64,000 bases of DNA from Streptacidiphilus albus JL83 (GTDB lineage Bacteria; Actinomycetota; Actinomycetes; Streptomycetales; Streptomycetaceae), in contig NZ_JQML01000001.1 of NCBI RefSeq assembly GCF_000744705.1, positions 7,574,017-7,638,016 of the forward strand, in the 5' to 3' direction. Each line of letters begins with the position of its first letter. Within the stretch, counting starts at the first letter, position 1. A program made the translations under genes and the position numbers. Positions 18,947 through 53,542 of the stretch are shown here, one piece after another. The notes below the pieces were generated by a model, which worked only from the letters and a program-made list of their open reading frames with translations, ran no database searches and was not told where the DNA came from.

Positions 18947-19182
18947 GGACCGAGGATGCCCGTGCACCCCGTTGCTCGGGAATGGGGGAGGGCCCCCATA
19001 TTCCGTCGGCGACCGGGCGGGCCCGAGAAGTCCGGGGGCCGTTCCCCATTGGGGCGGCGCTCCGCCGGGCGGCAGGATCGAGGGCAGGAAGTCCGGACGG
19101 GGCGGCGCCGGCCCGCGGCCCGGGCACCCGGTGCCCGAGCAACCGCCGACGCGGCCCCATGCACGCCGAGGGGAGGAACACC

Positions 19183-19260: not shown

Positions 19261-19274
19261 CAGCCGGTAGCGGT

Positions 19275-19313
19275 GAGGGCCGGGTCCACGGTGCCCGCCG
19301 GGGCCCGGCCCTC
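19275..19313 (+). terminator. Hairpin between precursor and protease gene
   Basis: GAGGGCCGGG pairs perfectly with CCCGGCCCTC across a 19-nt loop. It follows the 25-residue peptide by 14 bp and precedes the membrane protease gene. As in many RiPP loci, it could terminate most transcripts so that precursor mRNA exceeds enzyme mRNA (inference). Confidence 0.6.
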
Positions 19314-19342
19314 CTCACCCCCGCCCCTCCTCACCCCCGCCC
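19311..19342. repeat. Tandem 16-bp direct repeat, two copies
   Basis: CTCCTCACCCCCGCCC occurs twice back to back just after the hairpin stem and before the protease gene. It is C-rich and non-coding. It may simply be slippage, or part of the leader controlling readthrough. Confidence 0.7.
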
Positions 19343-19372
19343 CTCGCCCTGCCTACCGAAAGGCGTGCGCGC

Positions 19373-23172: not shown

Positions 23173-24144
23173 GTGCTGCGTCAATCCGTCATTCCCCGTA
23201 CACCCTGGGAAACGGTGGCGAAATCCATCGAGTTCATACCGGCCGAGTATTCCCACAAGACCCAGCCCGAATCGACGGCGCAGGAAATGCTGAGGTGCGA
23301 TCCGGCGGACATCGACCGGCTCGCCGAGGCCGGCCTGCCCTTCGAAGTCCGGGCTGGCGTGCGCTACTTCGACGTGAGCGACCTCTACAACCTCGGCATG
23401 TACTCGGGCCGGGGGAACACCCAGCCGGAGCTCGCGTTCCGCATGCTGTTCCGCTTCGCCGGGCGTCCGGTCGACGACCTGCTGCGGGAGAAGTCCTGGG
23501 ACTTCAAGGTCACGCTGGAGTGCACCGAGTGCGAGGGGGAGGCGCCCTGGCGTTTCGCCGGGCCCGACGCCGCCCGCTTCGGCGGTCGCCAGAGCGGGGG
23601 AGCGGCGCCCGGGGCGAGTGCGGGCACGGCGCACTACGGGGCGACGGTCACCACGCTCGGCGCGCGGACCCCCCTGCGCTCCGCCCGGTTGCGCGGCATC
23701 ACCCGCGACTACCTCGACTCCGGCTACCGCTGGCAGATGATCCCGGTCCCGATGCAGGCCGACTACCAGCTGGTGCACTCGCTGGGCGCGACCAGCTGCA
23801 TCGCCGCGAGCCTGCTGCTCGCCGAGCGGTTCCGGGCGGCCGGGTACCAGGCCGAGGCGAAGCGGGGCTGGTTCTGCGGCGTGCTCGGCGGCGCCCTCGA
23901 CCTGCCGCACGCCTGCGTGGAGGTGGTGGACGAGGACGGCGTGCTCAGGACCGTCGACATCGCCAAGGCGCAGCTGGCCGCCCGCCTGTCGGCGGAGACC
24001 GGGGACTTCCAGGAGCTGTGCCTCGGGTCGATCTACAACAAGGTGATCCCGTCCACGGCCTCCGGCGGTGCGTCCTTCGGGTACCACGAGTGCGGCTCCC
24101 GGAAGCCGGTGGAGGTGCGCGCGGACATTCGATCGCTGGGCTGA
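23173..24144 (+). CDS. Transglutaminase-like protein
   Basis: 323 residues. The C-terminal half has the papain-like transglutaminase layout: Cys209 in GATSCIAASLLLAERF, His246 in LDLPHACVEV and Asp262 in RTVDIAKA, in the right order and spacing for a Cys-His-Asp triad. In natural-product pathways, transglutaminase homologues such as AdmF join amines to carrier-bound acyl groups, so amide formation is plausible. The N-terminal ~110 residues have no assignable fold; a CTECEGEAPW segment follows. The GTG start has GAGGAAC upstream. First gene of a rightward run with carrier proteins, so an acyl-carrier substrate is likely (inference). Confidence 0.72.
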   Translation: MLRQSVIPRTPWETVAKSIEFIPAEYSHKTQPESTAQEMLRCDPADIDRLAEAGLPFEVRAGVRYFDVSDLYNLGMYSGRGNTQPELAFRMLFRFAGRPVDDLLREKSWDFKVTLECTECEGEAPWRFAGPDAARFGGRQSGGAAPGASAGTAHYGATVTTLGARTPLRSARLRGITRDYLDSGYRWQMIPVPMQADYQLVHSLGATSCIAASLLLAERFRAAGYQAEAKRGWFCGVLGGALDLPHACVEVVDEDGVLRTVDIAKAQLAARLSAETGDFQELCLGSIYNKVIPSTASGGASFGYHECGSRKPVEVRADIRSLG

Positions 24145-24180: not shown

Positions 24181-25065
24181 GTGAAAATGGCGGTACGTGA
24201 GATCGAGCCGGTCGTGCTGGACCTGGACCGGTTGGAGAACCTGGCCGAATCCGGCTACTACAACCCCTATTCGATGTTCGACTGGCCCGACGCCATCGAG
24301 GACGGCCTGCCGTGGATGAGCGAGAGCCTCACCACGCTGGCCGGCACCGAGATGTGGGACGAACTGACCCGCGAGCAGCAGATCGCGCTCACCAAGTTCG
24401 AGGCGATCAACTTCTTCAGCCTCAACATCCACGGCATCCGCGAGCTGCTCAACGACGTCGTGAACCGCATTCATGAGCGGACCTATGCGGACGTCTCGGA
24501 ATTCCTCCACCACTTCATCGGTGAGGAGAACGAGCACATGTGGTTCTTCGCGCAGTTCTGCCTGCGCTACGAGGGCCGGCTGTACCCGGCGCAGCCGGCG
24601 CTGAAGGCCGACTCGGTCGAGCACCTCTCCTCGGTGGCCCGCGAGCTGATCGTGTTCGCCCGCATCCTGATCTTCGAGGAGATCGTCGACTACTACAACG
24701 CGCACATGGCGACCGACGAGTCGCTGCCGCCGATCGCCCGCGAGATCAACCGCGTGCACCACCAGGACGAGAGCCGGCACGTCGCCTTCGGCCGGATGGT
24801 CTTCACCAACCTGCTCGCGCAGGTGGCCAGGCGCGACCCGGCCGAGGTGCCGGTGGTGGCCGAGTACCTGGAGAGCTACCTGCAGTACAGCATCGCCACC
24901 CTCTACAACCCGGCCGCCTACCGCGACGCGGGCATCCCCGACGCCCTCGCGCTGCGGCGGCGGGCGCTGGAGCACCCCGTCCGGATCGAGGCGCACGAGC
25001 AGGTGCTGAAGCGGACACGGAAGTTCCTGTCCAAGGCAGGCGTCGGCAGGGAGCTGATCAAGTGA
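24181..25065 (+). CDS. AurF-type diiron N-oxygenase
   Basis: 294-residue non-haem diiron oxygenase of the AurF/CmlI type, enzymes that oxidise amines to hydroxylamines, nitroso or nitro groups. The ligand pattern is visible: E116xxH119 in GEENEHMWFF, a Glu at FEEIVDYYN (~167) and H193xxxE197xxH200 in HHQDESRH, matching AurF's distinctive C-terminal arrangement. Either GTG 24181 or ATG 24187 could start it, both served by GGAAGGGCGA. Its stop overlaps the carrier-protein start (GTGA), so the substrate is plausibly an amino group presented on that carrier. AurF relatives also act in diazeniumdiolate pathways. Confidence 0.88.
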   Translation: MKMAVREIEPVVLDLDRLENLAESGYYNPYSMFDWPDAIEDGLPWMSESLTTLAGTEMWDELTREQQIALTKFEAINFFSLNIHGIRELLNDVVNRIHERTYADVSEFLHHFIGEENEHMWFFAQFCLRYEGRLYPAQPALKADSVEHLSSVARELIVFARILIFEEIVDYYNAHMATDESLPPIAREINRVHHQDESRHVAFGRMVFTNLLAQVARRDPAEVPVVAEYLESYLQYSIATLYNPAAYRDAGIPDALALRRRALEHPVRIEAHEQVLKRTRKFLSKAGVGRELIK

Positions 25066-25307
25066 GTACCGAACCCATGCAGGCGGTGCGCGAGTTCATC
25101 GTGGCCCGCAACCCCAAACTCGACCAGCTGTCCGACGACCTGGACCTCATCGACAGCCGGGCCATCAACTCGCTGGCCTTCGTCGAGTTCATCTTCCTGC
25201 TGGAAGAGCTGACCGGGGAGTCGATCGATCCGGAGGACCTGGACCTCGACGACTTCCGCACCCTCAGCGCCGTGAGCGCCCGATTCTTCACGAAGGAAGC
25301 AGTCTGA
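25062..25307 (+). CDS. Acyl/peptidyl carrier protein
   Basis: 81-residue free-standing carrier protein. The phosphopantetheine site is Ser37 in RAINSLAFVEFIFLLEELTG, with Asn instead of the common Asp before it. The helix pattern and acidic C-terminal half (IDPEDLDLDDF) are typical. It sits between the diiron oxygenase and an amino acid:carrier ligase, with stop/start overlaps on both sides, which strongly implies that the ligase charges it and the oxygenase acts on the charged form. The PPTase downstream would activate it. Confidence 0.88.
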   Translation: MSTEPMQAVREFIVARNPKLDQLSDDLDLIDSRAINSLAFVEFIFLLEELTGESIDPEDLDLDDFRTLSAVSARFFTKEAV

Positions 25308-26134
25308 TGACCACAGTGACCGACAACGGCCTGGGAGTTCTCGACGGCAGCCAGCTGCGGGTGCTGCGGGCGATCGACGCGGTGTTCCGGCGCCTGGCCG
25401 AGGGCTGGGACGCGCCGGAGTTCCGCTTCCCGTTCCTGATGCGCTGCGAGGACCTCGACCGCTTCGACTACTACGACAACTTCCCGCACCTGGGCCTCGC
25501 GGCGACCCGGCTCGACCCCGAGCGGCTCGGCGGCCTGCTGAAGGGGGCGGAGCGGCCGCTGGAGCGGATACCGGCCGAGGTGATGGAGCCGACCGCGTTC
25601 GCGCTGCCCTCGGCGGCCTGCTACTCGATCTACGTCAACCTGGCGGGCTCCACGCTGCCCGCCGAGGGGACGGTGCGGACCACGGTCGGCACCTGCTTCC
25701 GCAACGAGACCCACTACGAGGGCCTGCAGCGGTTGCTCGGCTTCTCCATGCGGGAGATCGTCTGCGTGGCCTCGGAGGACGTGGCCAAGAACCACCTGCT
25801 CCGCGCCAAGGACGCGGTGACCACCCTGTTCGCCGAACTCGGCCTGGACTTCAAGCTGGAGGTCGCCACCGACCCGTTCTTCGACAAGAACGGCGGCAAG
25901 GCGAAGATGCAGCGGCTGTTCCCGGTCAAGGAGGAGTTCGTGGTGGGCGGCCTGGCGGTCGGCTCGGTCAACTACCACCGGAACTTCTTCGGCGAGCGGT
26001 GCGGCATCCAGGCCGGCGCGGACACGGCCCACACCAGCTGCCTGGCCTTCGGCCTGGAGCGCTGGGTGCACGTCCTGACCGAGCGGTTCGGCAGCGCCGA
26101 GGCCGCCGCGTCCGCGGTCGAGGGCCTGCACTGA
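25307..26134 (+). CDS. Amino acid:[carrier protein] ligase (seryl-tRNA-synthetase-like)
   Basis: 275-residue class II synthetase core lacking the N-terminal tRNA-binding coiled coil of SerRS. Motif 2 is seen as CFRNE (130-134) and motif 3 as FGLERW (~247). Cys130 and Cys244 correspond to the zinc ligands of the Bradyrhizobium amino acid:carrier ligases, which activate glycine or alanine and charge the phosphopantetheine of a partner protein instead of tRNA. The immediately preceding carrier gene (ATG overlapping TGA) is the natural partner. Amino acid specificity cannot be read from sequence; a small amino acid is the family precedent. Confidence 0.88.
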   Translation: MTTVTDNGLGVLDGSQLRVLRAIDAVFRRLAEGWDAPEFRFPFLMRCEDLDRFDYYDNFPHLGLAATRLDPERLGGLLKGAERPLERIPAEVMEPTAFALPSAACYSIYVNLAGSTLPAEGTVRTTVGTCFRNETHYEGLQRLLGFSMREIVCVASEDVAKNHLLRAKDAVTTLFAELGLDFKLEVATDPFFDKNGGKAKMQRLFPVKEEFVVGGLAVGSVNYHRNFFGERCGIQAGADTAHTSCLAFGLERWVHVLTERFGSAEAAASAVEGLH

Positions 26135-27132
26135 TGCGATCCGCAGCGAGCGTGCTCGGCCTCCAGGTGAGCCTGCTCCAGTCCGGCATGGGCGGGGTCG
26201 CGGGCTCGGAGCTGGCCTGCGCGGTGTCCAACGCGGGCGCTGCGGGCTGCGTGGGCGGCTACAAGCTGGTCGGCGGCGCACTGTCGGCCATCCTCGCCCG
26301 GCTGACCGCAGGCACCGACCGGCCGGTCGGCGTGAACCTGATCCCGGAGGTGGTCGGGCCCGAGGAACTGGACCGGCAAGTGGCCCAGGTACTCGACGAG
26401 ACGCCGTCCCGCGTGCACCTGTCCTTCTTCGGCATGCCCGACGACTCGGTGTTCGACCGGGTCAATGTGGCGGGCCGGCAGGTGGTGGTGCAGGTCGGGT
26501 CGGTCCAGGACGGCGTCCACGCGGCCGGCCGCGGCGCCGTGGTGGTGGCCCAGGGCACCGAGGCGGGCGGCCACCTGCTCGGCACGTCGCGCCGCGACGA
26601 CCTGGTGGGCGCCCTGCGGACGCTGCTGCCCGACGCCTGCCTGGTCGCCTCGGGCGGTATCGGCTCGCCCGAGGAGGCCGCCCGGGCACTGGCGGCCGGC
26701 GCCGACGGGGTGCTGCTCGGCACCGCCTTCGTCGTCGCCCACCAGTCGCGGGCCCACGCCGGCTTCAAGTCGGCGGTGACCGCCGCGGACCGGACCGACA
26801 CCGTGATCACCGACGTGTACGAGATCGGCTGGCCGGGCCGGCGGCACCGGGTGCTGGCCACGGCCGCGACCGCGGACCCGGGCCTGCCCGCGAAGTTCAT
26901 CGGCAGGACGGTGGTCGAGGGAAAGCCGTACCTGGTACCGCGCTTCAGCGCCGCCGTGCCCACCGAGGCGACCAGCGGCCGCATCGAGGAGATGGCGCTG
27001 TACTGCGGCCGGTCCTGCAGCGAGATCAACGAAGAAGTGTCGGCGGCCGACGTCGTCGCCGCGTTCGCACGGGTCCTCCCGGGCGCCGAACCAGTCAAGA
27101 CCAACGAGAGGGCGGAAAGCCATGTCGGCTGA
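26134..27132 (+). CDS. Nitronate monooxygenase family flavoenzyme
   Basis: 332 residues, FMN-dependent TIM barrel of the nitronate monooxygenase (2-nitropropane dioxygenase) family. Typical elements are VGVNLIPEVV, the AQGTEAGGHLLG catalytic/FMN loop (~143) and VASGGIGSPEEAARALAAGA followed by DGVLLGTAFV. The family oxidises alkyl nitronates, which fits downstream of an N-oxygenase that could make a nitro group; it might remove the nitro function or protect the cell. TGATG overlap with the ligase gene and an 11-bp overlap with the next gene show one operon. Some relatives are enoyl reductases, so the reaction is not certain. Confidence 0.85.
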   Translation: MRSAASVLGLQVSLLQSGMGGVAGSELACAVSNAGAAGCVGGYKLVGGALSAILARLTAGTDRPVGVNLIPEVVGPEELDRQVAQVLDETPSRVHLSFFGMPDDSVFDRVNVAGRQVVVQVGSVQDGVHAAGRGAVVVAQGTEAGGHLLGTSRRDDLVGALRTLLPDACLVASGGIGSPEEAARALAAGADGVLLGTAFVVAHQSRAHAGFKSAVTAADRTDTVITDVYEIGWPGRRHRVLATAATADPGLPAKFIGRTVVEGKPYLVPRFSAAVPTEATSGRIEEMALYCGRSCSEINEEVSAADVVAAFARVLPGAEPVKTNERAESHVG

Positions 27133-27991
27133 AGCAGTGCAGGACGAGTACTACCACGACCTCAGCTACCGCGAGGGCACTCCGCTGGTCGGCACCAGGG
27201 AGGGCGTCGCGCTCTACCACGAGTCCACCGGTGAGGGCGTCGCCATCACGACGCTCAACAACTTCTTCTTCACCGCCCCGTTCTGGCGGGACTACACCGA
27301 CGAGCTCGCCAAGCACTACCGCGTCGTCAGCTACGACCTGGCCAACCACGGCCACTCCACCCGGCTGGAGCAGGAGCCGACCTGGGAGGAGCACGTCGCG
27401 GACCTGGTGGGGCTGCTCGACGCCCTGGAGATCGACTCGACCTACCTGCTCGCCTCGTCGGCCTCCACCCAGCTCGCCCGTGACGTGGCCCTCGCCCACC
27501 CGGACCGGGTGCGGGGCCTGGTGCTGGCCGGACCGGTCGTCGGCCCGCAGATACGGCGTCACCGGATGCTCCAGCGGGCCTGGCTGCGGACGCTGAACAG
27601 CAACGACATTCCCGTGCTGTTCAGCCACATGTACCCCGAGTTCGTCAGCACCCAGATGATCGAGGAGTACGGCGTACCGGGCTACCTCGGCCTCCGCGAG
27701 AGCTTCGTGGCCATGTCGACGCCCGAGGAGCTCAACAACGGCCTGGCGCTGGCCCAGCAGGGGGACCCCAGCTCCGAGCTGCTGACCCGGATCCAGGCGC
27801 CGACGCTGATCGCCCTGGGCGACGACGACATCCTGCTCGGCCCGACCGCGGGCCACGAGCTGGCCGCACTGTTCCCCAACGGCCGCTGCGTGATCATGCC
27901 CAAGGCCGGCCACGTGCCCTTCCTCGACGACGTCCTGGGCTTCCAGGAGCTGGTGCGGAAGTTCATCGAGGAAGCGGAAGACAATGCCTGA
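27122..27991 (+). CDS. Alpha/beta hydrolase
   Basis: 289-residue alpha/beta-hydrolase fold protein. The nucleophile elbow reads LLASSASTQLA (Ser113) rather than GxSxG, with an acidic residue in ALGDDDILLG and His in KAGHVPFLD, so a Ser-Asp-His triad is intact. YDLANHGHST is the usual oxyanion-side strand. Within an operon of free carrier proteins and no TE-containing NRPS, it may release the finished residue from its carrier, as Bhp does in beta-hydroxytyrosine formation (inference). Esterase or haloalkane-type activities remain possible. Confidence 0.85.
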   Translation: MSAEAVQDEYYHDLSYREGTPLVGTREGVALYHESTGEGVAITTLNNFFFTAPFWRDYTDELAKHYRVVSYDLANHGHSTRLEQEPTWEEHVADLVGLLDALEIDSTYLLASSASTQLARDVALAHPDRVRGLVLAGPVVGPQIRRHRMLQRAWLRTLNSNDIPVLFSHMYPEFVSTQMIEEYGVPGYLGLRESFVAMSTPEELNNGLALAQQGDPSSELLTRIQAPTLIALGDDDILLGPTAGHELAALFPNGRCVIMPKAGHVPFLDDVLGFQELVRKFIEEAEDNA

Positions 27992-28238
27992 CACCGCGGC
28001 GGAGGTCCGGCAGCAGATTCGGGAGGTGCTGGTCGGCGTGTTCGGCGGCCCCTCCTTCGTCAGCCAACTGCAGGACGCCGGCTCGCTGCGCGAGGCCGGA
28101 GTCCCCTCCACCGCGCTGGTCGCCCTGCTGGTGGCGATGGAGGACGCCTTCGGCTTCCAGTGGGACGACGACGTCCGGCCCGAGGTGCTGCGCTCGATCG
28201 ACTCACTGGCAGGCCACGTCCTGGCCCTGCGCAACTGA
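27984..28238 (+). CDS. Second carrier protein
   Basis: 84-residue carrier protein overlapping the hydrolase gene by 8 bp. The likely phosphopantetheine Ser42 is in AGVPSTALVALLVAMEDAFG; Val-Pro replaces the usual Asp before Ser, but flanking helices 2 and 3 are well conserved. It is distinct from the first carrier, so the cassette holds two separately addressed carriers, perhaps one for the amino acid and one for an acyl acceptor or a later intermediate. Confidence 0.8.
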   Translation: MPDTAAEVRQQIREVLVGVFGGPSFVSQLQDAGSLREAGVPSTALVALLVAMEDAFGFQWDDDVRPEVLRSIDSLAGHVLALRN

Positions 28239-28249
28239 GGGCCCACGCG

Positions 28250-28816
28250 GTGATCGTCGAGTCGGCCGCTCCCCGGGGCGCGGCACCGCTGATGTCCATG
28301 GAGACGTCCCGGGTGGCGCCGCCCCACGGACCGGCCGAGCAGTTCGCCGCCGGCCGTCGGGCGGCCGCCGCGGCCCTGGCCGCGGCCGGATCGGCCGGGC
28401 GGACGGTGGAGCGGGCCCGGGACGGCCGGCCGCTCTTCCCCCAGGGGTTCGCCGGTTCGATCTCCCACACCGGGCGGCTCGCGGTCGCCCTGGTGGTCCC
28501 CGGCGCCGAGGCGGTCGGCGTCGACATCGAGACCGCGGCCGTCACCCCCCGGATGGCCGCGTTCGTCCTGCGGGAACAGGAGCGCCGACTGCTGCTCGCC
28601 CCGGCCGGGCCCTACACCGCCCGGGACCTGTTCGCCGCCAAGGAGGCCGCCTTCAAGGCGCTGAACTGCATCGGCACGCTGGGGGAGTTCCTGTTCTGGC
28701 AGATCCAACTCAGCCGTCCCGAGGGCGTGCTGACCGCAACGTACCGCGGCGAATCGGTGCCGGTGTGGATCCACCCGCAGGCGGACCTGTCGTCCGCCGT
28801 GGCGATCCGGCGCTGA
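28250..28816 (+). CDS. 4'-phosphopantetheinyl transferase (Sfp type)
   Basis: 188 residues with PPTase signatures: SISHTGRLAVA (~70), the magnesium-binding GVDIET (Asp92, Glu94) and FAAKEAAFKAL (Lys131, Glu132). It converts apo-carrier proteins to holo form with CoA. The GTG follows GAGGG at a good distance; an ATG 42 bp later is an alternative. Its place 11 bp after a carrier gene suggests a dedicated enzyme for the two unusual carriers, although it could also serve the NRPS genes in the window. Confidence 0.9.
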   Translation: MIVESAAPRGAAPLMSMETSRVAPPHGPAEQFAAGRRAAAAALAAAGSAGRTVERARDGRPLFPQGFAGSISHTGRLAVALVVPGAEAVGVDIETAAVTPRMAAFVLREQERRLLLAPAGPYTARDLFAAKEAAFKALNCIGTLGEFLFWQIQLSRPEGVLTATYRGESVPVWIHPQADLSSAVAIRR

Positions 28817-28900
28817 AGCCCGACTCCGCTGCCCATCCGCCCCCGTACGAGCGTGATCCGTCGCTCGGTTCCGGACCGTCGCCCCCATCTGGAGACCCTC

Positions 28901-30391
28901 ATGACCGGCACACCCCTGCCCGGGGGGAGCGAACGCTTCCAGCGCACGCTGACCACCCCGAAGATCGTATTCATCGTCATCGCCGCGGCCGCCCCGCTGG
29001 CCGCGATGGTGTTCACCGTCCCGCTCGCCTTCGCCATCGGCACCGGCCCCGGTGTGCCGGCCATGTTCATCTTCGCGGGCCTGACCCTGCTGTGCTTCTC
29101 CGCCGGATATGCGGCCATCGCGCGGCGGATCAGCCACATGGGCGGCTTCTACACCCACATCGCGCACGGCCTGGGCCGCCGTGCGGCGGCCGGGGCGGGA
29201 ATGCTCGCGGTGCTCTCCTACAACGCCGCCACGGTCGGCGTCCTCGGCGCGTTCGCCTACTTCGCCCAGCACGTGGCCGCGGACCACGGGCTGAACCTGC
29301 CCTGGCAGGTGTGGGCCGGAGCCGGCCTGCTCCTGGTCGCCCTGCTCGGCTACCAGGAGGCCGACCTCAGCGCCCGGCTGCTGTCCGTCTGCATGGTGTG
29401 CGAGATCACCATCCTGGTCGCACTGGACATCGCCATCCTGGTCCGCCACGGCGGCGCGGCCCTGCCGTCCGCCTCCTTCGCCCCCGACAACGTCTTCGCC
29501 CCCGGACTCGGCGTCGCCGTGATGTTCGGCTTCGCCTCCTTCCTGGGCTTCGAATCGGCCGCCCTGTACGGCGAGGAGGCCAAGGCGCCCCACCGCAGCG
29601 TGCCCCGCGCCACCGTGATCGCGGTCCTGATCGTCGCCGCCTTCTACGCCCTGACCAGCTGGGTCGCCGTCGGCGCGCTGGGCCCCGGGCAGGTACGCGC
29701 CCAGGCCTCGAACCACCTCGGCGACCTGTTCTTCCGGCTCAGCGACAGCTACCTGGGCCACTCCGCCACCCTCGCCATGCAGATCCTGCTGTGCACCAGC
29801 CTGTTCGCCTCCTGGCTGGCGCTGCACAACGCCTCCAACCGGTACATGTACGCGCTGAGCCGTGACGGGCTGATGCCGGCCGGCCTCAGCGCCACTCCCA
29901 CGGGGCGCAGCTCCGTGCACCGGGCCAGCGTGACCCAGACCGTCTTCAGCACGGTGACGGTCGCCCTGTTCGCGGCCGCGGGCCTCGACCCCTACGTGAA
30001 CATGTCGACCAGCATGCTGGGGCTGGGCACCCTCGGCATCATCCTGCTGCAGGCCCTGGCCTCGACAGCGGTGATCGGCTACTTCCGCAACCGGCGCGAG
30101 GGACGCTGGCAGACCCTCGTCGCGCCCGCGCTGGGAGCCCTGGGACTGATCACCGCGGCGGTTCTGGTGGTGTCGAACTTCGACGTGCTGACCGGAACCA
30201 CCAATCCCGCCGTCACCGCCCTGCCGTGGCTCCTGCTGGTCGTCGTCGGCCTCGGCGTCGCCTACGCCTCCTGGCTGCGCTCGGCCCGCCCGGACCAGTA
30301 CGCGCGCCTGGGCGGCGGGTCCGTGCCGGCGCAGCCGCTCACCGTCCCGGTCAAGGAACCTTCCGGCAGCCTCTCCCAGACAGCGCCGTGA
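28901..30391 (+). CDS. APC-family amino acid permease
   Basis: 496-residue integral membrane transporter with about 12 hydrophobic segments and APC-superfamily features: VFTVPLAFAIGTGPGVPAMF in the first helices, GFASFLGFESAALYGEEAK in helix 6, and NRYMYALSRDGLMP. It probably imports, or exchanges, an amino acid or amine across the cell membrane. Position between the carrier/PPTase genes and a PLP decarboxylase suggests supply of the decarboxylase substrate or exchange of amino acid for amine (inference). Start ATG has TGGAGA upstream. Confidence 0.88.
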   Translation: MTGTPLPGGSERFQRTLTTPKIVFIVIAAAAPLAAMVFTVPLAFAIGTGPGVPAMFIFAGLTLLCFSAGYAAIARRISHMGGFYTHIAHGLGRRAAAGAGMLAVLSYNAATVGVLGAFAYFAQHVAADHGLNLPWQVWAGAGLLLVALLGYQEADLSARLLSVCMVCEITILVALDIAILVRHGGAALPSASFAPDNVFAPGLGVAVMFGFASFLGFESAALYGEEAKAPHRSVPRATVIAVLIVAAFYALTSWVAVGALGPGQVRAQASNHLGDLFFRLSDSYLGHSATLAMQILLCTSLFASWLALHNASNRYMYALSRDGLMPAGLSATPTGRSSVHRASVTQTVFSTVTVALFAAAGLDPYVNMSTSMLGLGTLGIILLQALASTAVIGYFRNRREGRWQTLVAPALGALGLITAAVLVVSNFDVLTGTTNPAVTALPWLLLVVVGLGVAYASWLRSARPDQYARLGGGSVPAQPLTVPVKEPSGSLSQTAP

Positions 30392-30435
30392 CTGCGGCTC
30401 GAACCGGGAGCCACGCAGTGAAAGGATCAGCTCCA

Positions 30436-32151
30436 ATGGTCAGTGAAGCCGAGAACCTTGCGGACATCCCCTTCGGTCCCGAAGACACGCCGTGGCAGAA
30501 GACCTTCAGCAGCCTACGGGTCGTCGGCGGCCGTCCCTACGGCACTCCGCCGTCCAGCGACCCCCGGACCGCCTACCTCGGCGTTCCCGAAGTACCGCAC
30601 CACAAGGTGCAGTTGCCGCCCTCCGGACTGGACGCGGAGCAGTACACCGAGGCCGAGTCGCTGTTCCGCCGTCACATAGACACCCAGACCCGCAACTTCG
30701 CCGGCTACCAGGTCACCAGCGCCCTCGACTACGAGCAGCGCCTGGGGCACTACCTCAACCGGCACCTCAACAACGTCGGGGACCCCTACCAGTCCAACTC
30801 GTACACGCTCAACTCCAAGGTGCTCGAACGGGCCGTGCTCGACTACTTCGCCTCGCTGTGGCACGCGAAGTGGCCGCACGACCCGGAGGATCCCGAGTCG
30901 TACTGGGGCTACGTGCTGACCATGGGCGCCAGCGAGGGCAACCTGTACGGCCTGTGGAACGCGCGGGACTACCTGTCGGGCAAGCCCCTGCGCACCCAGC
31001 ACCGCGAGCCGGGCCGGGACGGCGCCGAGCAGGCGCCGCAGGGCGAAGGTCCGAACGCCTTCCACCCCGTGGCGTTCTTCTCCGAGGACACCCACTACTC
31101 GCTGACCAAGGCCGTACGGGCACTGGACATCGACACCTTCCACGACCTGGGCTCCACGCGGTACCCCGACGACAACCCCCTGGCGCCGGGCGCCCCCTGG
31201 CCGCGGAAGGTGCCCTCGACCGCGGACGGCGCCATCGACATCGAGCAACTCGGGCTCCTGGTGCGGTTCTTCGCCAGCCGGGGCTACCCCGTCCTGGTCA
31301 GCCTCAACTACGGGTCCACCTTCAAGGGCGCCTACGACGACGTCGAGGCGGTCGCCCGCACGGTGCGCGGCATCTGCGCCGAGTACGGGCTGGACCACCG
31401 GCGCGTCCACCAGGACCGCGACGCCAACGGCAACCATGACGAGCGGTCGGGATTCTGGCTGCACGTCGACGGGGCCCTCGGCGCCGGTTACACGCCCTAC
31501 CTGGAGATGGCCCGGGACGCCGGCATGGTGGAGCAGGCGCCGCCGGTCTTCGACTTCCGCCTCTCCGACCTGCACTCACTGACCATGAGCGGCCACAAGT
31601 GGATGGGCACGCCGTGGGCCTGCGGGGTGTTCATGACCCGCACCGGACTGCAGATGGCCCCGCCCGGGGCCTCGGAGTACATCGGCGCCGCCGACACCAC
31701 CTTCGCGGGCTCCCGCAACGGCTTCTCCTCGCTGCTGATGTGGGACCACCTGGCCCGCAACTCCTACGACGACCAGGCCCGGGTCGCGGCCGAGTGCGAC
31801 GGCCTCGCCGCCTACACCCACCAGCAACTCCTGCTGCTGCAGCAGCAGCTGGGCCAGGACCTGTGGGTGGCCCGCAGCCCGCAGGCGCTGACGGTACGGT
31901 TCCGCCAGCCGCACCCGGACATCGTCCGCCGCTACTCGCTGGCCTGCGAGACCGTGCAGGTCGACGGCGCCGCCCGCACCTACGTCCACCTGTACGCGAT
32001 GCGCCACCTCACCAGGCAGCGCGTCGACGAACTCATCGGCGAGCTGCGACAGCCGGGCGCCTTCGCCCCGGCCCCGCCCACCGGCGCCACCGACGGCGGG
32101 GCGCGAGCGGCCCGACCGGCCGTACCGGTGGCCGACGCGATGGCGGGCTGA
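30436..32151 (+). CDS. PLP-dependent amino acid decarboxylase (VlmD-like)
   Basis: 571-residue group II-type PLP decarboxylase. The PLP Lys388 is in TMSGHKWMGTPWACG; upstream HVDGALGAGYTPYL supplies the cofactor-binding Asp, and LTMGASEGNLYGLWNARDYL matches the cofactor-binding stretch. The overall style is that of actinomycete histidine/valine decarboxylases; the valanimycin enzyme VlmD, which makes isobutylamine from valine, is the closest functional analogue I know. The extra C-terminal Ala/Pro tail looks disordered. It would supply an amine for condensation, possibly by the transglutaminase-like protein. Substrate unproven. AAAGGA lies 9 nt before the ATG. Confidence 0.85.
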   Translation: MVSEAENLADIPFGPEDTPWQKTFSSLRVVGGRPYGTPPSSDPRTAYLGVPEVPHHKVQLPPSGLDAEQYTEAESLFRRHIDTQTRNFAGYQVTSALDYEQRLGHYLNRHLNNVGDPYQSNSYTLNSKVLERAVLDYFASLWHAKWPHDPEDPESYWGYVLTMGASEGNLYGLWNARDYLSGKPLRTQHREPGRDGAEQAPQGEGPNAFHPVAFFSEDTHYSLTKAVRALDIDTFHDLGSTRYPDDNPLAPGAPWPRKVPSTADGAIDIEQLGLLVRFFASRGYPVLVSLNYGSTFKGAYDDVEAVARTVRGICAEYGLDHRRVHQDRDANGNHDERSGFWLHVDGALGAGYTPYLEMARDAGMVEQAPPVFDFRLSDLHSLTMSGHKWMGTPWACGVFMTRTGLQMAPPGASEYIGAADTTFAGSRNGFSSLLMWDHLARNSYDDQARVAAECDGLAAYTHQQLLLLQQQLGQDLWVARSPQALTVRFRQPHPDIVRRYSLACETVQVDGAARTYVHLYAMRHLTRQRVDELIGELRQPGAFAPAPPTGATDGGARAARPAVPVADAMAG

Positions 32152-32232
32152 CGCGGACTCACACCGCAATGACCTCCGAGGTGACGGGAACAGGCCCCGG
32201 GGGCCGTTCGCCGAGGCCGCCGCGGATGCGGC

Positions 32233-32262
32233 GGGCCCACGTGCTCCCGGGCACGTGGGCCC
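32233..32262 (+). terminator. Terminator hairpin with T-rich tail
   Basis: GGGCCCACGTGC pairs perfectly with GCACGTGGGCCC across a 6-nt loop and is followed by TTCCTTTC. It lies between the decarboxylase and halogenase genes, so the halogenase may have its own promoter or be reached by readthrough. Confidence 0.7.
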
Positions 32263-32320
32263 TTCCTTTCCGCGGCCGGCTCCGTCCCCCGGATGCCTTG
32301 AGCCATGACCGAGGAGAGAC

Positions 32321-33286
32321 ATGTCCGCTCAGCAGCACGACTTCCGGCTCACCGCCGACGAGGTGGCGGAGTTCCACCGGACTGGGTACGCGGGCCCGTT
32401 CACCCTCTACCAGCCCGACGAGATCGAGCGGGAGTGGGCCAGGACCCGCCAGGACCTCGCGGACCGCAGCGGCGCGGTGTACCGGTCCGCGAGCGACGGC
32501 TCGGGGGCGGCGGACGTGTCCAACTACGACCGGCACCTCGACAACGCCTTCCTCGCCGACCACATCACCCAGCCGCGGATCGTGGACCGGGTCGCCTCCG
32601 TGCTCGGCCCCGACGTGCTGTGCTGGCGCTCGGACTTCTTCCCCAAGTACCCGGGGAACGAGGGCACCGACTGGCACCAGGCCGCCACCTTCGCCAACGC
32701 CTCCGGTCGGCCCCAGATCCAGTGGCCGGCGGGCCCGGGCCCGGGCGGCGCCCTCACCGTGTGGTGCGCGTTCACCGACGCCACCGCCGACATGGGCGGC
32801 CTGCAGTTCATCCCCGGCACCCACCGCACCATGCACTACGACGAGACCAAGCGGATGCGCTACGACCCGGTCCGGAACGTCTCCCTGGTGAAGAACGGCG
32901 TCCGGCGCGGTTTCTTCGGCTACGACTACCGCGAGCTCCAGATCGACCCGCACTGGCAGCCGGACGAGTCCGAGGCGGTCTCCATGGAGCTGCGGGCCGG
33001 GCAGTTCGTCGTCTTCTGGTCGCGCCTGATGCATGCCTCGCACCCGCACAGCGGCCGGACCAGGCAGATGCGGATGGGCTTCTCGGCCCGCTACGTGCCC
33101 GCGTCGGTGCGGGTCTACCCCGGGGCCTCGGAGGTCGAGGAGTACGGCGCCCGGGTGAGCCTGGACCGGTACGGGACGGTGCTGGTCAGCGGCGAGGACT
33201 GCTTCGGCCACAACCGGGTGGCCACGAGCACCACCGCCGGTCATCTCTTCCGCCGCCGCAACGGCGGCGTGCCCATGGGCTCCTGA
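32321..33286 (+). CDS. Fe(II)/2-oxoglutarate halogenase (SyrB2 type)
   Basis: 321 residues of the PhyH fold. In the iron site the usual HxD is replaced by H119-Q-A121 (TDWHQAATF), the hallmark of chlorinating enzymes such as SyrB2 and CytC3, where Ala leaves room for chloride; the second iron His is probably H238 in LMHASHPHSG. Segments RGFFGYDYRELQIDP and RQMRMGFSARYVP are also shared with SyrB2-type enzymes. Those enzymes chlorinate aliphatic amino acids tethered to carrier proteins, which fits the two free carriers upstream. GAGGAGAGAC precedes the ATG. A hydroxylase is unlikely given the Ala. Confidence 0.85.
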   Translation: MSAQQHDFRLTADEVAEFHRTGYAGPFTLYQPDEIEREWARTRQDLADRSGAVYRSASDGSGAADVSNYDRHLDNAFLADHITQPRIVDRVASVLGPDVLCWRSDFFPKYPGNEGTDWHQAATFANASGRPQIQWPAGPGPGGALTVWCAFTDATADMGGLQFIPGTHRTMHYDETKRMRYDPVRNVSLVKNGVRRGFFGYDYRELQIDPHWQPDESEAVSMELRAGQFVVFWSRLMHASHPHSGRTRQMRMGFSARYVPASVRVYPGASEVEEYGARVSLDRYGTVLVSGEDCFGHNRVATSTTAGHLFRRRNGGVPMGS

Positions 33287-33369: not shown

Positions 33370-34302
33370 CTACTGCGCCGAGGGCGCCGAGGCCAGCATC
33401 CGTTCCAGGGCGGCCAGCACGTTGTCCGTCGCCTGGCCGGCGGCCGGTACGGTGCCGGCCATGAGGAGGTATCCGTGCACCAGGCCCTCGGCGGGCACGT
33501 GGTGCACCACGGCGCCGTGGGCGGTCAGCCGCGCCGCCAGTTCGACGCCCTCGTCGTGCAGCGGGTCGAACTCGGCCGTGCCGACCACCGTGGGCGGCAG
33601 CCCGTGGAGATCGGCGCCCAGCAGGTCGATCTCCGGGTCCCTGCGGCGCGCCGGGTCCGGCACGTACAGGTCGTAGTACCAGCGCAGGTCGTCGACGTCC
33701 GAGAGGTACCCCGAGCCGTACTCGCGGGCGGAGCGGGACCGCAGCTCCGGATCGGCCGGTGGATAGACCAGCAGCTGCGCGGCGAACCCGATGCCGCCGT
33801 GGTCGCGGTGGTGCATCGAGATCCCCACGGCCAGGGCCCCGCCCGCACTGTCCCCGGCGATCACGTGGTGGCGGCCGGGGAAGGCGCGGTCCGCCCACTC
33901 GGACGCGGCGATGCCGTCCCGGAGCGGGCCGGGGTGCGGATGCTCCGGCGCACGGCGGTAGTCGACGGAGACGACGACCGCGCCCAGTCCGTCGGCGATG
34001 CGACGGCAGACCGGGTCGTGGGTGTCGACGTCACCGACCGTCCAGCCGCCCCCGTGCAGGTACGTCACCAGACGCCCCCGGTCGGTGGGCGGCAGGTAGG
34101 TCCGGACGCCGAACTCGCCGTCGCCGCCGTCGATCAGCTGGTCCTTGGTCTCGATGCCCGCGTCCCGGACGCCCGCACTGAGCTGGGTCGCCTGTGCGCT
34201 GTAGCGCTCGCGCAGCTGCGCGACGGGGAGGTTGCGCGCCGGTTCGGGTCGGCTGCCCGCCTGCCACTGGATCAGGGCGCGGACGAAACGGTCCATGGCC
34301 AC
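33370..34302 (-). CDS. HSL-family alpha/beta hydrolase (esterase/lipase-like)
   Basis: 310-residue esterase of the hormone-sensitive-lipase group: HGGGW oxyanion motif, GDSAGG nucleophile elbow, Asp in AEFDPLHDEG and His in GLVHGYL. No signal peptide, so it is cytoplasmic. The GTG start is preferred because AAGGAG lies 7 nt upstream; the ATG two codons later is the alternative. It follows the KAS III-like gene on the same strand by 110 bp, suggesting a two-gene unit. Substrate unknown; deacylation of a pathway intermediate or resistance-type hydrolysis are possible. Confidence 0.9.
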   Translation of the reverse strand: MAMDRFVRALIQWQAGSRPEPARNLPVAQLRERYSAQATQLSAGVRDAGIETKDQLIDGGDGEFGVRTYLPPTDRGRLVTYLHGGGWTVGDVDTHDPVCRRIADGLGAVVVSVDYRRAPEHPHPGPLRDGIAASEWADRAFPGRHHVIAGDSAGGALAVGISMHHRDHGGIGFAAQLLVYPPADPELRSRSAREYGSGYLSDVDDLRWYYDLYVPDPARRRDPEIDLLGADLHGLPPTVVGTAEFDPLHDEGVELAARLTAHGAVVHHVPAEGLVHGYLLMAGTVPAAGQATDNVLAALERMLASAPSAQ

Positions 34303-34412
34303 GAGGGTTCTCCTTGAGTCGCACCGGCGGCGGATCCAACGGTGCGGATCCGCACAGCCGGCTGTACACGGGGTCGGCTTGAGCCGCTCCTCGTCGATGG
34401 GCGGCACCCTGG

Positions 34413-35495
34413 TCAGGCGCGAACCAGGTCCCTGACGTCGGCGGGCAGGTCGAAGTCGGTGGTGGTCTCGGGCCACTCCGGCACCGACTCGATCTCCAGC
34501 ACCGCCACGGTCACCGAGTAGCCGCCGCCGGTACCGATCATGAGCACGAGGTCGCCCGGACCGACCTCCTTCTTCTCCACCAGGCGGGCCACCCCCGCGC
34601 TCAGGTCGCCCGCGCCCATGTGCCCGGCGTGGCGGCCCCAGTTCCACAGGGTGCGCTCGGCCGGGATGTTCAGCGGCTTGAAGAACTGGGCCTCCATCAT
34701 CCCGTGGCCCATGTTGGGCACCAGGACCCGGGCGAAGTCGTCGACCCTGTGCCCGGTCCGGTCGAGCACCTTGGAGACGGCGCTCAGCAGCGTCTCCTCG
34801 GCGCGCTGCAGCACCGACTCCGACCCGACCTCCTCCAGGTACGACTTCTTGGGAGTGCGCAGGTTCTCGTTGGCGACCACCCCGTACGCGGTGGTGAACG
34901 GGGCAGTGCCCCGGTGCAGCGGCTCCAGGGAGGCATCGGTGGTCGACGCGACGGCGTGGATCCGGGCGAAACCGCCGGTCGTGGAGAGGACCAGCGCGGT
35001 GGCGCCGTCGCCGAAGGGGATGCCGTACGAACCTCGCCACCGGTCGAATCCGGGCGGGCAGAACCGGTCCGCGGTGGTGATCAGCGCGCTGGTGCCCCGG
35101 CCGGCTTCGAGCTGGGCCATCGCCAGATCGATCGCCGCCATGCCGCCGTTCGACATCCCCTCCAGGTTCAGCGCGAAGGCGTCGGTGATGCCAAGTTCGC
35201 GCTGGATGTAAGGAGCCGAATTCCAGTGGTGGTCGCGGCCCTGGTGGTATATCGATGCGTGCAGGATCAGATCGACCTGGTCTCCGACCACGGCCGCGGC
35301 CCGATCGAGGGCCTTTCGCCCCGCGATCACTCCCATGTCCGGAACCGGGACCTCGTCCGTGGCCACCGGCAGGCAGGGTATTTTATTGGTGTCGTTGTCG
35401 TTGGCGGGGTAGTTGCCGGCAGCCACTGCCGCCGCCGCCGATTCCGCCGGCGGAATCCAGGCTGCAGCGGACGCGATATAGACAGGAATATTCAT
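34413..35495 (-). CDS. KAS III-like enzyme with Ser in place of catalytic Cys
   Basis: 360-residue thiolase-fold protein of the ketoacyl-ACP synthase III family. At the nucleophile position the sequence is LEGMSNGGMAAI (Ser115) instead of Cys; the His (MGHGMMEAQ) and Asn/His region (WNWGRHAGHMGAGD) remain. Ser-containing relatives such as DpsC, and acyltransferases of the CerJ/ChlB3 group, transfer acyl groups rather than run normal fatty-acid priming. It may therefore acylate an amine or hydroxyl in the neighbouring pathway. GAAGAAG precedes the ATG. Confidence 0.85.
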   Translation of the reverse strand: MNIPVYIASAAAWIPPAESAAAAVAAGNYPANDNDTNKIPCLPVATDEVPVPDMGVIAGRKALDRAAAVVGDQVDLILHASIYHQGRDHHWNSAPYIQRELGITDAFALNLEGMSNGGMAAIDLAMAQLEAGRGTSALITTADRFCPPGFDRWRGSYGIPFGDGATALVLSTTGGFARIHAVASTTDASLEPLHRGTAPFTTAYGVVANENLRTPKKSYLEEVGSESVLQRAEETLLSAVSKVLDRTGHRVDDFARVLVPNMGHGMMEAQFFKPLNIPAERTLWNWGRHAGHMGAGDLSAGVARLVEKKEVGPGDLVLMIGTGGGYSVTVAVLEIESVPEWPETTTDFDLPADVRDLVRA

Positions 35496-35900
35496 CGTCC
35501 AATTCTTCTTCCGAGTGCGGTGAGCGCGATCATGCCGTGTGACCTGGGGCTCGGATCGCGGAGATTCATCGGGATGCGGCCATGCTACAATGCCGCCCCC
35601 GACCTCTCGTAGATGCATTTCTCATGACTTCAGGTGGCATCTGACTTCCGGTGGCACCGCCGACGCGGGGCACGGGTATCGGCGGGCGAATCGGATGCCG
35701 CGGCCGGAATTTTCGGGCCCGCCGCCACCGTCACCGAGGTTAGGGGCGGGCGCGCGAAAACGAAACACCCCGGCGGGCGCGTGAGAGATCCACGGAAAGC
35801 CGTGCGCGATGCACGTGGACGCGCCAGGGGCGTGTCTGAGAAACTGATCCGCGAAGGCCGGACTCGAATGTGCGACTGTCCACGGTGGGCAGTTGAACGG
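35496..35900. other. Intergenic region, no gene supported
   Basis: About 400 bp between the start of the KAS III-like gene and the end of the TetR gene, less GC-rich than the coding DNA near its left end. It probably contains the promoter for the leftward KAS III/esterase pair. No convincing open frame or hairpin was found. Confidence 0.5.
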
Positions 35901-36638
35901 TCAGCCCGACCCCGTGCCCGGTGTCGTCGATTCCGTTTCCGGTGTTGTCGGCGCCTCCGCCAGGCACTGCGCGAGCAGGCCGTCGACGAAGGCGCGCAGC
36001 CCCTGCGCGAAGGTGTCCTGCCCGGCCAGTCCTGCCCACTGGTCGGCGATGGCGGCCAGGTGCGGGTGCCGGAGCGGGCCGTCGGCGTTGCCGAAGTAGG
36101 GGTTGAGGAAGGCGGGGTCCTGCTCGTCCATCCTGCGGTGGCGGGTGTGCGCGCGCACGAGGATCTCGCCGACCGTGTAGTACCAGATGCTGCGGAAGAT
36201 CCGGACGGTCTGCTCCGGGCGGCACCCGGCGTCGACCACTCCGGCCAGGATCGTCTCGACCAGCCACAGGAACGAGTCGCCGAGCCGGGCGATGAACCCG
36301 TCGGTGGTGAGGATCTCCGCCGCCCAGGGCCATGCCGCCAGGCCGTCGTGGATCGCGACGGCGGCCGTGATGATCCGCTCCCGCGGCTCGCTCGGCAGTT
36401 CGGGGTGCGGGATCTGCTCCGCGTACTCGTAGATCAGCAGGAACAGCAGGTCCTCCTTGTCCCGCATGTGCGAGTACAGGGTCGTCGTCCCGACGCCGAT
36501 CTCGGACGCGAGTCGGCGGACCGTGAGCTTCTCCCAGCCGCACTCGTCGATGAGGGTGCGGGCCGTGGCCAGGATCTGCTCGCGGGAGGTCAGCGGGGGA
36601 CGGCCGACGGGCCGGCGCGGTGCGTTCGAACGGGGCAT
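35901..36638 (-). CDS. TetR-family transcriptional regulator
   Basis: 245 residues. The N-terminal TetR HTH is clear (REQILATARTLIDECG...LTVRRLASEIGVGTTTLYSHM, residues ~19-65), and the C-terminal ligand domain has the helical pattern of TetR_C families. It is divergent from an MFS exporter, the classic arrangement for a repressor that senses the drug the pump exports. A 24-bp imperfect palindrome lies in the shared intergenic region. Confidence 0.92.
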   Translation of the reverse strand: MPRSNAPRRPVGRPPLTSREQILATARTLIDECGWEKLTVRRLASEIGVGTTTLYSHMRDKEDLLFLLIYEYAEQIPHPELPSEPRERIITAAVAIHDGLAAWPWAAEILTTDGFIARLGDSFLWLVETILAGVVDAGCRPEQTVRIFRSIWYYTVGEILVRAHTRHRRMDEQDPAFLNPYFGNADGPLRHPHLAAIADQWAGLAGQDTFAQGLRAFVDGLLAQCLAEAPTTPETESTTPGTGSG

Positions 36639-36711
36639 CGCCCCATCATGCCCCGCCGCGACACCCGATGTGCATGACCTGCGCGGTCGACATCCCTCCG
36701 CCCCCGCTGCT

Positions 36712-36735
36712 AATTTCGGAACACGGTCGGAAATT
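36712..36735. promoter_or_regulatory. Candidate TetR operator
   Basis: AATTTCGGAACA/CGGTCGGAAATT forms a 24-bp imperfect inverted repeat (9 of 12 positions symmetric), in an unusually AT-rich patch between the divergent TetR and MFS genes, 36 bp before the MFS start. Position, length and symmetry fit a TetR operator. Confidence 0.55.
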
Positions 36736-36771
36736 CACCGGCACGACCAGGACGCAGAGGGGCTGGGTGCT

Positions 36772-38220
36772 GTGGCAAGTACGCAAGTAGCGAGTGAGAA
36801 GGCAGGCGTCGCGCATGTCGCGCGGACTGGGACCACCCTCGCCGCGGTCTCCGTGGTGCAGTTCATGGTGTCGCTGGACCTGACGGTGGTGAACGTCGGA
36901 CTTCCCCAGATCGGCAGCAGTCTCGGCTTCAGCGAGGTGGGCCTGACCTGGGTCATCCACGCGTACGCCCTCACCTTCGGCGGCCTGCTGCTGCTGGGCG
37001 GCAAGATCGCCGACCGGTACGGGTACAAGCGCGTGATGCTGTTCGGGCTCGTCCTGTTCGGCGTCTCCTCGCTCGTCGGCGGTCTGGCGCAGGTCCCCGG
37101 CCAGCTGGTGGCCGCGCGCGCGGTGCAGGGCATCGGGGCCGCCGCGGTCGCGCCGGCGGCGCTGGCGCTGCTCTCCTCGACCTTTCCCGGCGGCAAGGAG
37201 CGGGTGAAGGCCTTCGGCATCTGGAGCGCGGTGAACGCCTCCGGCGGCGCCGTCGGCGTCCTGGTCGGCGGACTGCTCACCCAGTACGCGGGCTGGCAGT
37301 GGGTGATGTTCATCAACCTGCCGATGGCCGCCCTCGCGCTGCTCCTGGCCTGGCGCGGCATCGCCCGGGACACCCCTTCCGCACGCCGCGGCCGCCCGGA
37401 CGTGCTGGGCGCGGTGCTGGCCACGGCGGGTGCGGCCCTGCTCGTGTACGGCGTGGTCAGGACCGACGAGTACGCGTGGACCTCGCCGAACACCCTGATC
37501 ACCCTTGCGGTCGCGGTCGTCCTGCTGGCCGCCTTCGTCCAGGTCGAGCGGACGACCAAGCGCGACCCGCTGATCCGCCTCGGTCTGTTCGCCAACCGCT
37601 CGGTCTCCGGCGCCAACATCTTCATGCTGCTGTTCGGCGGCGCCATGGCCTCGGCCCTGTACTTCGTCTCCCTCTACCTCCAGCGGGTGCTCGGCGGCAG
37701 CCCGGCCCGCGCCGGCACCGAGTTCCTGCCGTTCATGGTGGGCGTGGTCGTCGGCTCCACCCTCGCCGTCAAGTTCGGCTACAAGTTCGCCCCCCGGAAC
37801 ATGCTGATCGTCGGTGGCACCATGGCCGCGCTCGGCTACGCCTGGTTCAGCCTGATGCGCCCCGACGGCACCCTCCTGGTCGACGTCCTCGGCCCGTCCG
37901 TCCTCGCCAGCCTCGGCATCGGCCTGTGCCTCGCGCCGGCCGTCTCCATCGCCACCGGGGGCGTCCTGCCGCACGAGGCGGGCGCCGCCTCCGGCGTGCT
38001 CAACAGCACCCGCCAGATCGGCGCCTCGCTCGGCCTCGCCGCGCTCGGCACCGTCGCCGCCGACCGCACCGGCAAGGTGGTCACGGCCGGCAGCCTCAAC
38101 GCCGGGTACGCGCTGGGCATGCTGGTCGGCGCCGGAATGCTCGCGGTCGCCGTCCTCGTCGCGGTCTTCGTCCTGCCCCGGCCCGCCCGCGCCACCGCCG
38201 ACGGAGCCCAGCAGTCGTGA
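36772..38220 (+). CDS. MFS exporter, DHA2/EmrB type
   Basis: 482-residue membrane transporter with about 14 hydrophobic segments. QFMVSLDLTVVNVGLPQIG in the first helix, LGGKIADRYGYKRVMLFG between helices 2 and 3 and the motif C-like segment around GGAVGVLVGG are typical of proton-driven drug exporters. It probably exports, and gives resistance to, a toxic compound, perhaps the product of the cassette to the left. GTG start with GAGGGG upstream. Likely controlled by the divergent TetR. Confidence 0.92.
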   Translation: MASTQVASEKAGVAHVARTGTTLAAVSVVQFMVSLDLTVVNVGLPQIGSSLGFSEVGLTWVIHAYALTFGGLLLLGGKIADRYGYKRVMLFGLVLFGVSSLVGGLAQVPGQLVAARAVQGIGAAAVAPAALALLSSTFPGGKERVKAFGIWSAVNASGGAVGVLVGGLLTQYAGWQWVMFINLPMAALALLLAWRGIARDTPSARRGRPDVLGAVLATAGAALLVYGVVRTDEYAWTSPNTLITLAVAVVLLAAFVQVERTTKRDPLIRLGLFANRSVSGANIFMLLFGGAMASALYFVSLYLQRVLGGSPARAGTEFLPFMVGVVVGSTLAVKFGYKFAPRNMLIVGGTMAALGYAWFSLMRPDGTLLVDVLGPSVLASLGIGLCLAPAVSIATGGVLPHEAGAASGVLNSTRQIGASLGLAALGTVAADRTGKVVTAGSLNAGYALGMLVGAGMLAVAVLVAVFVLPRPARATADGAQQS

Positions 38221-53481: not shown

Positions 53482-53542
53482 GGTGACTGTTCTCTCAGGT
53501 GGCTTGGATCGAACGGCGGTTGGCCGGCATCGGAGGGTCGGG

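Follow-up and report, generated by a model that had tools for sequence, protein, structure and literature searches.

The oxidation of glycine to a nitronate while it is held on a carrier protein has precedents in two described systems that stand closest to the locus reported here. According to passages in three papers that cite it, the work of He and Ryan (Nat Chem 2021) described a diiron oxygenase that converts carrier-activated glycine to a nitronate, which is then either O-methylated towards enteromycin or denitrified to nitrite by a nitronate monooxygenase (NMO). In the akazaoxime/A-76356 cluster of Micromonospora sp. AKA109, glycine is also oxidized on a carrier by a diiron oxygenase, and the consulted sections of that paper (PMC9967187) propose loading by a nonribosomal peptide synthetase (NRPS), a nitronate O-methyltransferase, and a polyketide synthase (PKS) module, with a glycine-derived aldoxime as the product. 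Sections of further papers were also drawn on (PMC13061610, PMC11705231, PMC11035981, PMC12183544, and PMC11205464). Here, we analyzed a 64,000-nucleotide stretch of Streptacidiphilus albus JL83 (contig NZ_JQML01000001.1, positions 7,574,017 to 7,638,016), referred to below as the window, which contains a cassette of genes for an AurF-type diiron oxygenase, free carrier proteins, and an NMO-like flavoprotein. The host is a soil actinomycete, and its genome is assembled as a single 9.9 Mb contig. On balance, this cassette appears to represent the carrier-bound glycine-nitronate machinery in its denitrifying form, with further genes that enlarge it into a biosynthetic cluster.

In the window, a free carrier protein (CP1) and an amino acid activator (LIG) adjoin the oxygenase, and together with a transglutaminase-like protein (TG), the NMO, an alpha/beta hydrolase (ABH1), a second carrier (CP2), and a phosphopantetheinyl transferase (PPTase), they make up an eight-gene core, which is followed here by an APC permease, a decarboxylase (DEC), and a halogenase (HAL). 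Seven residues of the oxygenase (E74, E116, H119, E166, H193, E197, and H200) are invariant in all 18 aligned sequences, and we take these to correspond to the metal ligands of AurF; a search of PDB sequences with the AurF profile returned two R2-like proteins only. Like the Bradyrhizobium amino acid:carrier protein ligase (3mey), LIG has an aminoacyl-tRNA synthetase (aaRS)-like catalytic core, and, again as in that enzyme, the Pfam scan detected no Seryl_tRNA_N domain. LIG scores only 85 bits against 3mey, and it is a distant relative of PRK07080 (amino acid:carrier protein ligase), since it reaches 126 bits and misses the curated cut-off of 357. The preliminary description of this DNA, made from its sequence alone, had read these genes as an aaRS-like ligase that loads a free carrier and an AurF-type enzyme that oxidizes nitrogen, and as predictions, both readings are supported by these similarities.

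Co-occurrence of the oxygenase, ligase, and carrier genes across genomes, which the preliminary description had proposed as a check, is pronounced. When GTDB genomes were scanned with an alignment of AurF sequences, at least 260 relatives were confirmed, the best 80 of which were taken (L058 to L137). A ligase match lies within 1.5 kb of AurF in 79 of these 80, the remaining locus (L095) being without a ligase, and a CP1 match lies within 1.5 kb in 68 and within 3.5 kb in 78, with the other two (L102 and L113) situated at contig ends. Neither gene was found within about 1.5 kb of generic PF11583 genes at any of 30 control loci, 3 of which were represented by stretches shortened by contig ends. 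A separate search with the ligase (E up to 1e-20) covered 391 genomes drawn from the order and found it in 111 of them, with at least 75% ligase identity at 12 loci in 11 genomes, counting the window's own. Around 20 of the best ligase loci (L038 to L057), for which 20 kb each was fetched, the eight-gene core is complete at 11. Among the 26 relatives with at least 80% AurF identity (from 25 genomes, assigned to nine genera by their record titles, not counting the window; hereafter the close loci), all eight genes are present on the stored stretch at 22; three of the others (L059, L062, and L068) are truncated where their contigs end, and L076 has no CP2 match. Gene by gene, CP1, LIG, and NMO are present at all 26 close loci, TG and ABH1 at 25 each, and CP2 and PPTase at 24 each. 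The two sets of loci partly overlap, as some contigs are common to both, and the recurrence of the core in 11 of 20 and 22 of 26 loci indicates that the gene order of the cassette is not due to chance. Two observations concern the ligase itself: Nonomuraea soli carries tandem ligase genes 79% and 62% identical to LIG (L080, 11124-12805), and the host genome encodes a second, more distant relative (G000:C1:8609697-8610212; 41% over residues 99-266).

The clearest division among the relatives concerns what would happen to the nitronate. Within 6 kb of AurF, 34 of the 80 relatives have an LCM methyltransferase, 34 have an NMO, 12 have neither, and none has both. The methyltransferase count was obtained by tblastn with the PF04072 (LCM-type) protein of L108 and supersedes a count of 23 from gene calls, and the labels on the AurF tree still carry the older gene-call assignments. 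All 34 methyltransferase loci fall inside one starred group of 37 rows on that tree, and the window falls inside a starred group of 26 rows, every one of which has an NMO. No match to the methyltransferase was found by tblastn at E 1e-8 anywhere in the 64 kb window, which therefore shows an NMO without a nitronate O-methyltransferase, as the denitrification branch requires. Streptomyces achromogenes (L108) and S. albireticuli (L112) lie on the methyltransferase side, where AurF, ligase, carrier, and LCM methyltransferase are all present. S. albireticuli is an enteromycin producer, and the two loci are probably enteromycin-type relatives. The mutual exclusion of NMO and methyltransferase fits two alternative fates of one nitronate and offers an easy way to sort such clusters, and the presence of an NMO makes it more likely that the nitrogen is lost as nitrite than that it is kept. 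In this respect, a product with a retained N-O or N-N function, which the preliminary description had considered possible, is the less likely outcome.

Taking as established the genes, their conserved residues, the conservation of the core, the division between NMO and methyltransferase, and the exchange of amine modules described below, we propose the following route. The PPTase would prime CP1 and CP2, LIG would load glycine onto CP1, and AurF would oxidize the glycyl amine to a nitroacetyl or nitronate thioester, from which the NMO would then release nitrite by oxidative cleavage, leaving a glyoxylyl thioester. Handed on possibly via CP2 and ABH1, the C2 acyl unit would be joined by TG to a free amine. 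This amine would come from an exchangeable module, in the window from the conversion of valine to isobutylamine by DEC, and HAL would chlorinate a second carrier-bound acyl group.

Evidence for the amine comes from the genes beside the core. DEC and the APC permease are 80% and 79% identical, respectively, to a neighboring pair on plasmid NZ_CP108116.1, in a cluster that also encodes serS, ilvC, ilvN, an acetolactate synthase large subunit, a PF09924 protein, an acyl-CoA dehydrogenase-like protein, a flavin reductase, a protein annotated as VlmB-like, and a below-cut-off match to DUF4260. PF09924 is the VlmA family, and DUF4260 is the family of Ady6, a relative of VlmO, according to a partly consulted source (PMC9379638). 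The likeness of DEC and the permease to this valanimycin-type pair suggests that valine is decarboxylated to isobutylamine, and the module thus points to isobutylamine as the amine supplied, in keeping with the coupling to an amine that the preliminary description had considered possible; the closest solved structure to DEC is methionine decarboxylase (7cif, 475 bits). As in valanimycin-type azoxy clusters, then, a decarboxylase and a permease about 80% identical to the pair there are present, but unlike in those clusters, no VlmA (PF09924), VlmH, VlmR, or VlmB counterpart occurs among the 18 proteins scanned at 15.8-38.2 kb of the window. An azoxy pathway was rejected, as the decarboxylase and permease alone are common to both. 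Lipoxamycin/neo-enactin was also rejected after a literature search that yielded nothing useful, and alanosine and the fragin/Pvf systems were considered and set aside as direct matches. Among the 26 close loci, DEC is found at 3, a PigE-like aminotransferase at 13, a PKS at 3, and none of these at 7. The PigE-like module is a large aminotransferase fusion (PF00202), accompanied at 11 of the 13 loci by a fatty acyl ligase-like gene; the fusion at L044 is PigE-like by NCBIfam, with 284 bits where the cut-off is 850. The stretches at the close loci stop about 1 to 6 kb past the PPTase, most of them at about 6 kb, so a remoter HAL or amine module would escape notice.

The candidate for the coupling step is TG, which has no Pfam or NCBIfam match. 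Its triad of Cys209, His246, and Asp262 is invariant in all 10 aligned sequences, and in a fair-quality AlphaFold2 (AF2) model (mean pLDDT 81.6), this Cys-His-Asp triad is predicted to lie in a transglutaminase-like fold. The model matches the putative cysteine protease 3isr best (VIA-align Z 12.3, 192 residues, 3.5 A); Foldseek gave E 9e-5, yet a TM of 0.35. Matches to arylamine N-acetyltransferases (NAT) and the geldanamycin amide synthase GdmF were weak (Z 5 to 6). Residues 28-79 form a helix-turn-helix (HTH)-like segment of the BldC/MerR type (BldC Z 5.8, 52 residues, 2.5 A), and a profile of TG matched a single PDB sequence, that of a flagellin-hook family protein (E 0.0047).

Several observations weigh against the proposed route. 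With its HTH-like N-terminus, TG may be a regulator or a protease instead, and a regulatory role is conceivable because residues 28-79 resemble BldC. The best PDB matches of the NMO are FabK (2z6i, 77 bits) and then an NMO (5lsm, 66 bits), the AurF tree does not unite the NMO loci in one clade, with L122 falling outside, and it gives no star to the branch (90/85) that groups the window's set with most of the other NMO loci. The loci closest to the core clade (L083 to L085) have no NMO, TG, or CP2 matches, and TG occurs without NMO at six loci at which AurF, CP1, and LIG are present (L115, L130, L137, L052, L053, and L055). The glycine specificity of LIG is borrowed by analogy from related systems; the passages that cite He and Ryan (2021) are silent on the type of enzyme that loads glycine, and those consulted from the akazaoxime paper name an NRPS. 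With glycine on CP1, HAL has no evident substrate. The link between the core and the amine rests on gene neighborhood, and 7 of the 26 close loci have none of the three modules, although L059, L068, and L077 are on short contigs and L080 has a weaker PKS match. Finally, formation of the amide is putative, as are the functions given above to CP2 and ABH1.

The halogenase bears most directly on the alternatives. HAL carries an HxA motif (H119-Q-A121) in place of HxD and scores 433 bits against TIGR01762 (cut-off 226), and it is thus a SyrB2-type enzyme, like those of the SyrB1/SyrB2 and CytC3 systems. Enzymes related to SyrB2 have carrier-bound amino acids as their substrates. Unlike those systems, no adjacent partner with adenylation and peptidyl carrier domains (A-PCP) was found for HAL: there is no AMP-binding gene among the 18 proteins scanned around it, whereas an AMP-binding, A-PCP-like gene lies directly beside the HAL homologue in all five neighborhoods fetched, as judged by weak similarity and position rather than by a domain scan. 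The nearest A-PCP found is an A-PCP-thioesterase (A-PCP-TE) protein at 2827-5469, which was rejected as a partner, being about 27 kb away and having a thioesterase domain. These features would also suit a reading in which the amino acid loaded by LIG has a side chain (Ala, Thr, Val, or similar), AurF oxidizes the nitrogen of that amino acid, and HAL chlorinates its side chain on the same CP1, as no carriers other than CP1 and CP2 were found near HAL and LIG is the sole amino acid activator seen in the scanned region. We nevertheless consider this unlikely. HAL is present in few core clusters (2 of the 26 close loci on the stored stretches, one of them broken, and additionally L046, where it lies farther downstream), the motifs of LIG are common to the ligases of clusters in which no HAL was seen, and the precedent substrate, in the passages available, is glycine. 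L060 and L046 have an intact halogenase gene and L078 a broken one, and since the stretches end soon after the PPTase, remote copies could be missed, as L046 shows. If LIG takes glycine, HAL cannot chlorinate the side chain of that residue and must act elsewhere, perhaps on CP2. If LIG takes another amino acid, the single-substrate scheme of the preliminary description may be correct. HAL is a clear SyrB2 relative, but chlorination of the same loaded amino acid, as anticipated in the preliminary description, is doubtful given the rarity of HAL and the lack of a side chain in glycine. Should HAL indeed act on a carrier with no A-PCP partner, the range of uses for SyrB2-type enzymes would widen. 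At L078 (Streptomyces zagrosensis, 18400-20876), the broken halogenase gene adjoins a transposase-like sequence, as judged by eye.

The other alternatives concern the nitrogen. It is rather improbable that the NMO-like protein is a FabK-type reductase, or acts on some other intermediate, and that the nitrogen is retained as a nitro or oxime group as in akazaoxime; the FabK match and the aldoxime reported in the consulted sections on akazaoxime would fit this, but the mutual exclusion of NMO and methyltransferase over 80 loci fits alternative nitronate fates instead. Just as improbable, if not slightly more so, is that nitrite is itself the useful product and nitrosates or diazotizes the amine made by DEC to give an N-N compound. 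The position of the window in a clade in which every member has an NMO and the amine supplier shared with an azoxy-type cluster speak for such a role, but no recognized N-N-forming enzyme and no PF09924 match was found among the 18 proteins scanned.

Returning to the denitrifying glycine-nitronate cassette, the preliminary description had held that no described pathway has this combination of genes. This does not apply to the core, which matches the glycine-nitronate chemistry as presented in the passages that cite He and Ryan (2021), with a diiron oxygenase, a carrier-bound amino acid, and an NMO as one of two fates; it does apply to the larger variant. Compared by description, the cassette differs from those of He and Ryan in the addition of TG, ABH1, CP2, and an amine-supply module, with a halogenase in few members, and on the AurF tree, the window's AurF group stands on a separate branch that is long and fully supported. 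With the akazaoxime cluster, as far as the consulted sections describe it, the cassette shares the predicted oxidation of glycine on a carrier by a diiron oxygenase, but it differs from the NRPS loading, nitronate O-methyltransferase, and PKS module proposed there. The core chemistry was already described in 2021; what makes this variant new is its set of eight core genes, together with amine modules that can be exchanged and a halogenase that is optional. No product for such clusters, and no identical cluster already linked to one, which the preliminary description had named as a finding that would count against it, was found in the open-licence literature searched, where several queries were aimed at the chemistry rather than at a product. 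An orphan gene set present, besides the window, at 26 loci in 25 genomes and nine genera is thereby tied to described chemistry, and the module next to the core allows the amine, isobutylamine or a fatty alkylamine, to be predicted. A more far-reaching view, which we offer tentatively, is that of a widespread actinomycete pathway in which a glycyl carrier is oxidized to a nitronate and denitrified, and TG couples the C2 thioester or nitrite to exchangeable amines; it could yield a new class of compounds, either N-alkyl C2 amides or products with an N-N bond, of which one subgroup would be chlorinated by a halogenase that acts without an NRPS module.

The genes from AurF to HAL all lie on the + strand, in the order and places given in the preliminary description, and mostly overlap or nearly do so, the successive junctions being -4, -1, -1, -11, -8, +11, +36, +26, and +169 bases. 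The span given there (24181-33286, from the start of AurF to the end of HAL) was right in gene content, but the unit is larger: it starts with TG at 23173 and extends perhaps to 38220, as TG and the set at 33370-38220 had been overlooked. This latter set, of hydrolase, KASIII-like, TetR, and MFS genes, recurs next to some relatives. The features are listed in Table 1.

Table 1. Genes of the cassette and its possible flanking members, in window coordinates.
Feature	Position	Strand	Evidence
TG, HTH-like N-terminus and transglutaminase-like domain (predicted), core gene	23173..24144	+	Cys209, His246, Asp262; AF2 model
AurF-family diiron oxygenase	24181..25065	+	PF11583, 120 bits
CP1, free carrier protein, Ser37	25062..25307	+	PF00550; motif
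LIG, aaRS-like amino acid:carrier ligase	25307..26134	+	PDB 3mey 85 bits; PRK07080 126 bits, cut-off 357
NMO, nitronate monooxygenase/FabK-family flavoprotein	26134..27132	+	PF03060, 105 bits
ABH1, alpha/beta hydrolase, possible thioesterase	27122..27991	+	PF00561
CP2, second carrier, Ser42	27984..28238	+	PRK07081 33.5 bits (cut-off 72); PF00550 14.7 bits, below cut-off
PPTase	28250..28816	+	PF17837, PF01648
APC permease, accessory	28853..30391	+	PF13520; 79% identical to valanimycin-type cluster permease
DEC, VlmD-like pyridoxal phosphate (PLP) decarboxylase, accessory	about 30418..32151 (start codon uncertain)	+	PF00282; 80% identical to L139 decarboxylase
HAL, SyrB2-type iron/2-oxoglutarate (Fe/2OG) halogenase, accessory	32321..33286	+	TIGR01762 433 bits (cut-off 226); SyrB2 2fct 440 bits; HQA 119-121
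HSL-type esterase, possible cluster member	33370..34290	-	PF07859
KASIII-like protein, possible cluster member	34413..35495	-	PF08541; 87% identical in L138
TetR regulator, possible cluster member	35901..36638	-	PF00440; also in L038, L039, L040
MFS exporter, possible cluster member	36685..38220	+	PF07690; also in L038, L039, L040

In the KASIII-like protein, Ser replaces the active-site Cys (EGMSNGG, by eye), and the protein is perhaps an acyltransferase. Shortly downstream of the cluster, a transposase-like open reading frame was noted by eye at 41385-42617. Elsewhere in the window, a LanM-type lanthipeptide synthetase (DUF4135, LANC_like) is encoded at 15824-18826, adjoined by a 400-aa protein and a TPR protein, and the region at 782-5469 encodes a tryptophan-halogenase-family flavoprotein adjoining the A-PCP-TE protein mentioned above. 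On the - strand at 52252-63992, genes for a P450, an aminotransferase, an FMN-dependent dehydrogenase, and an A-PCP-TE protein probably form a separate cluster.

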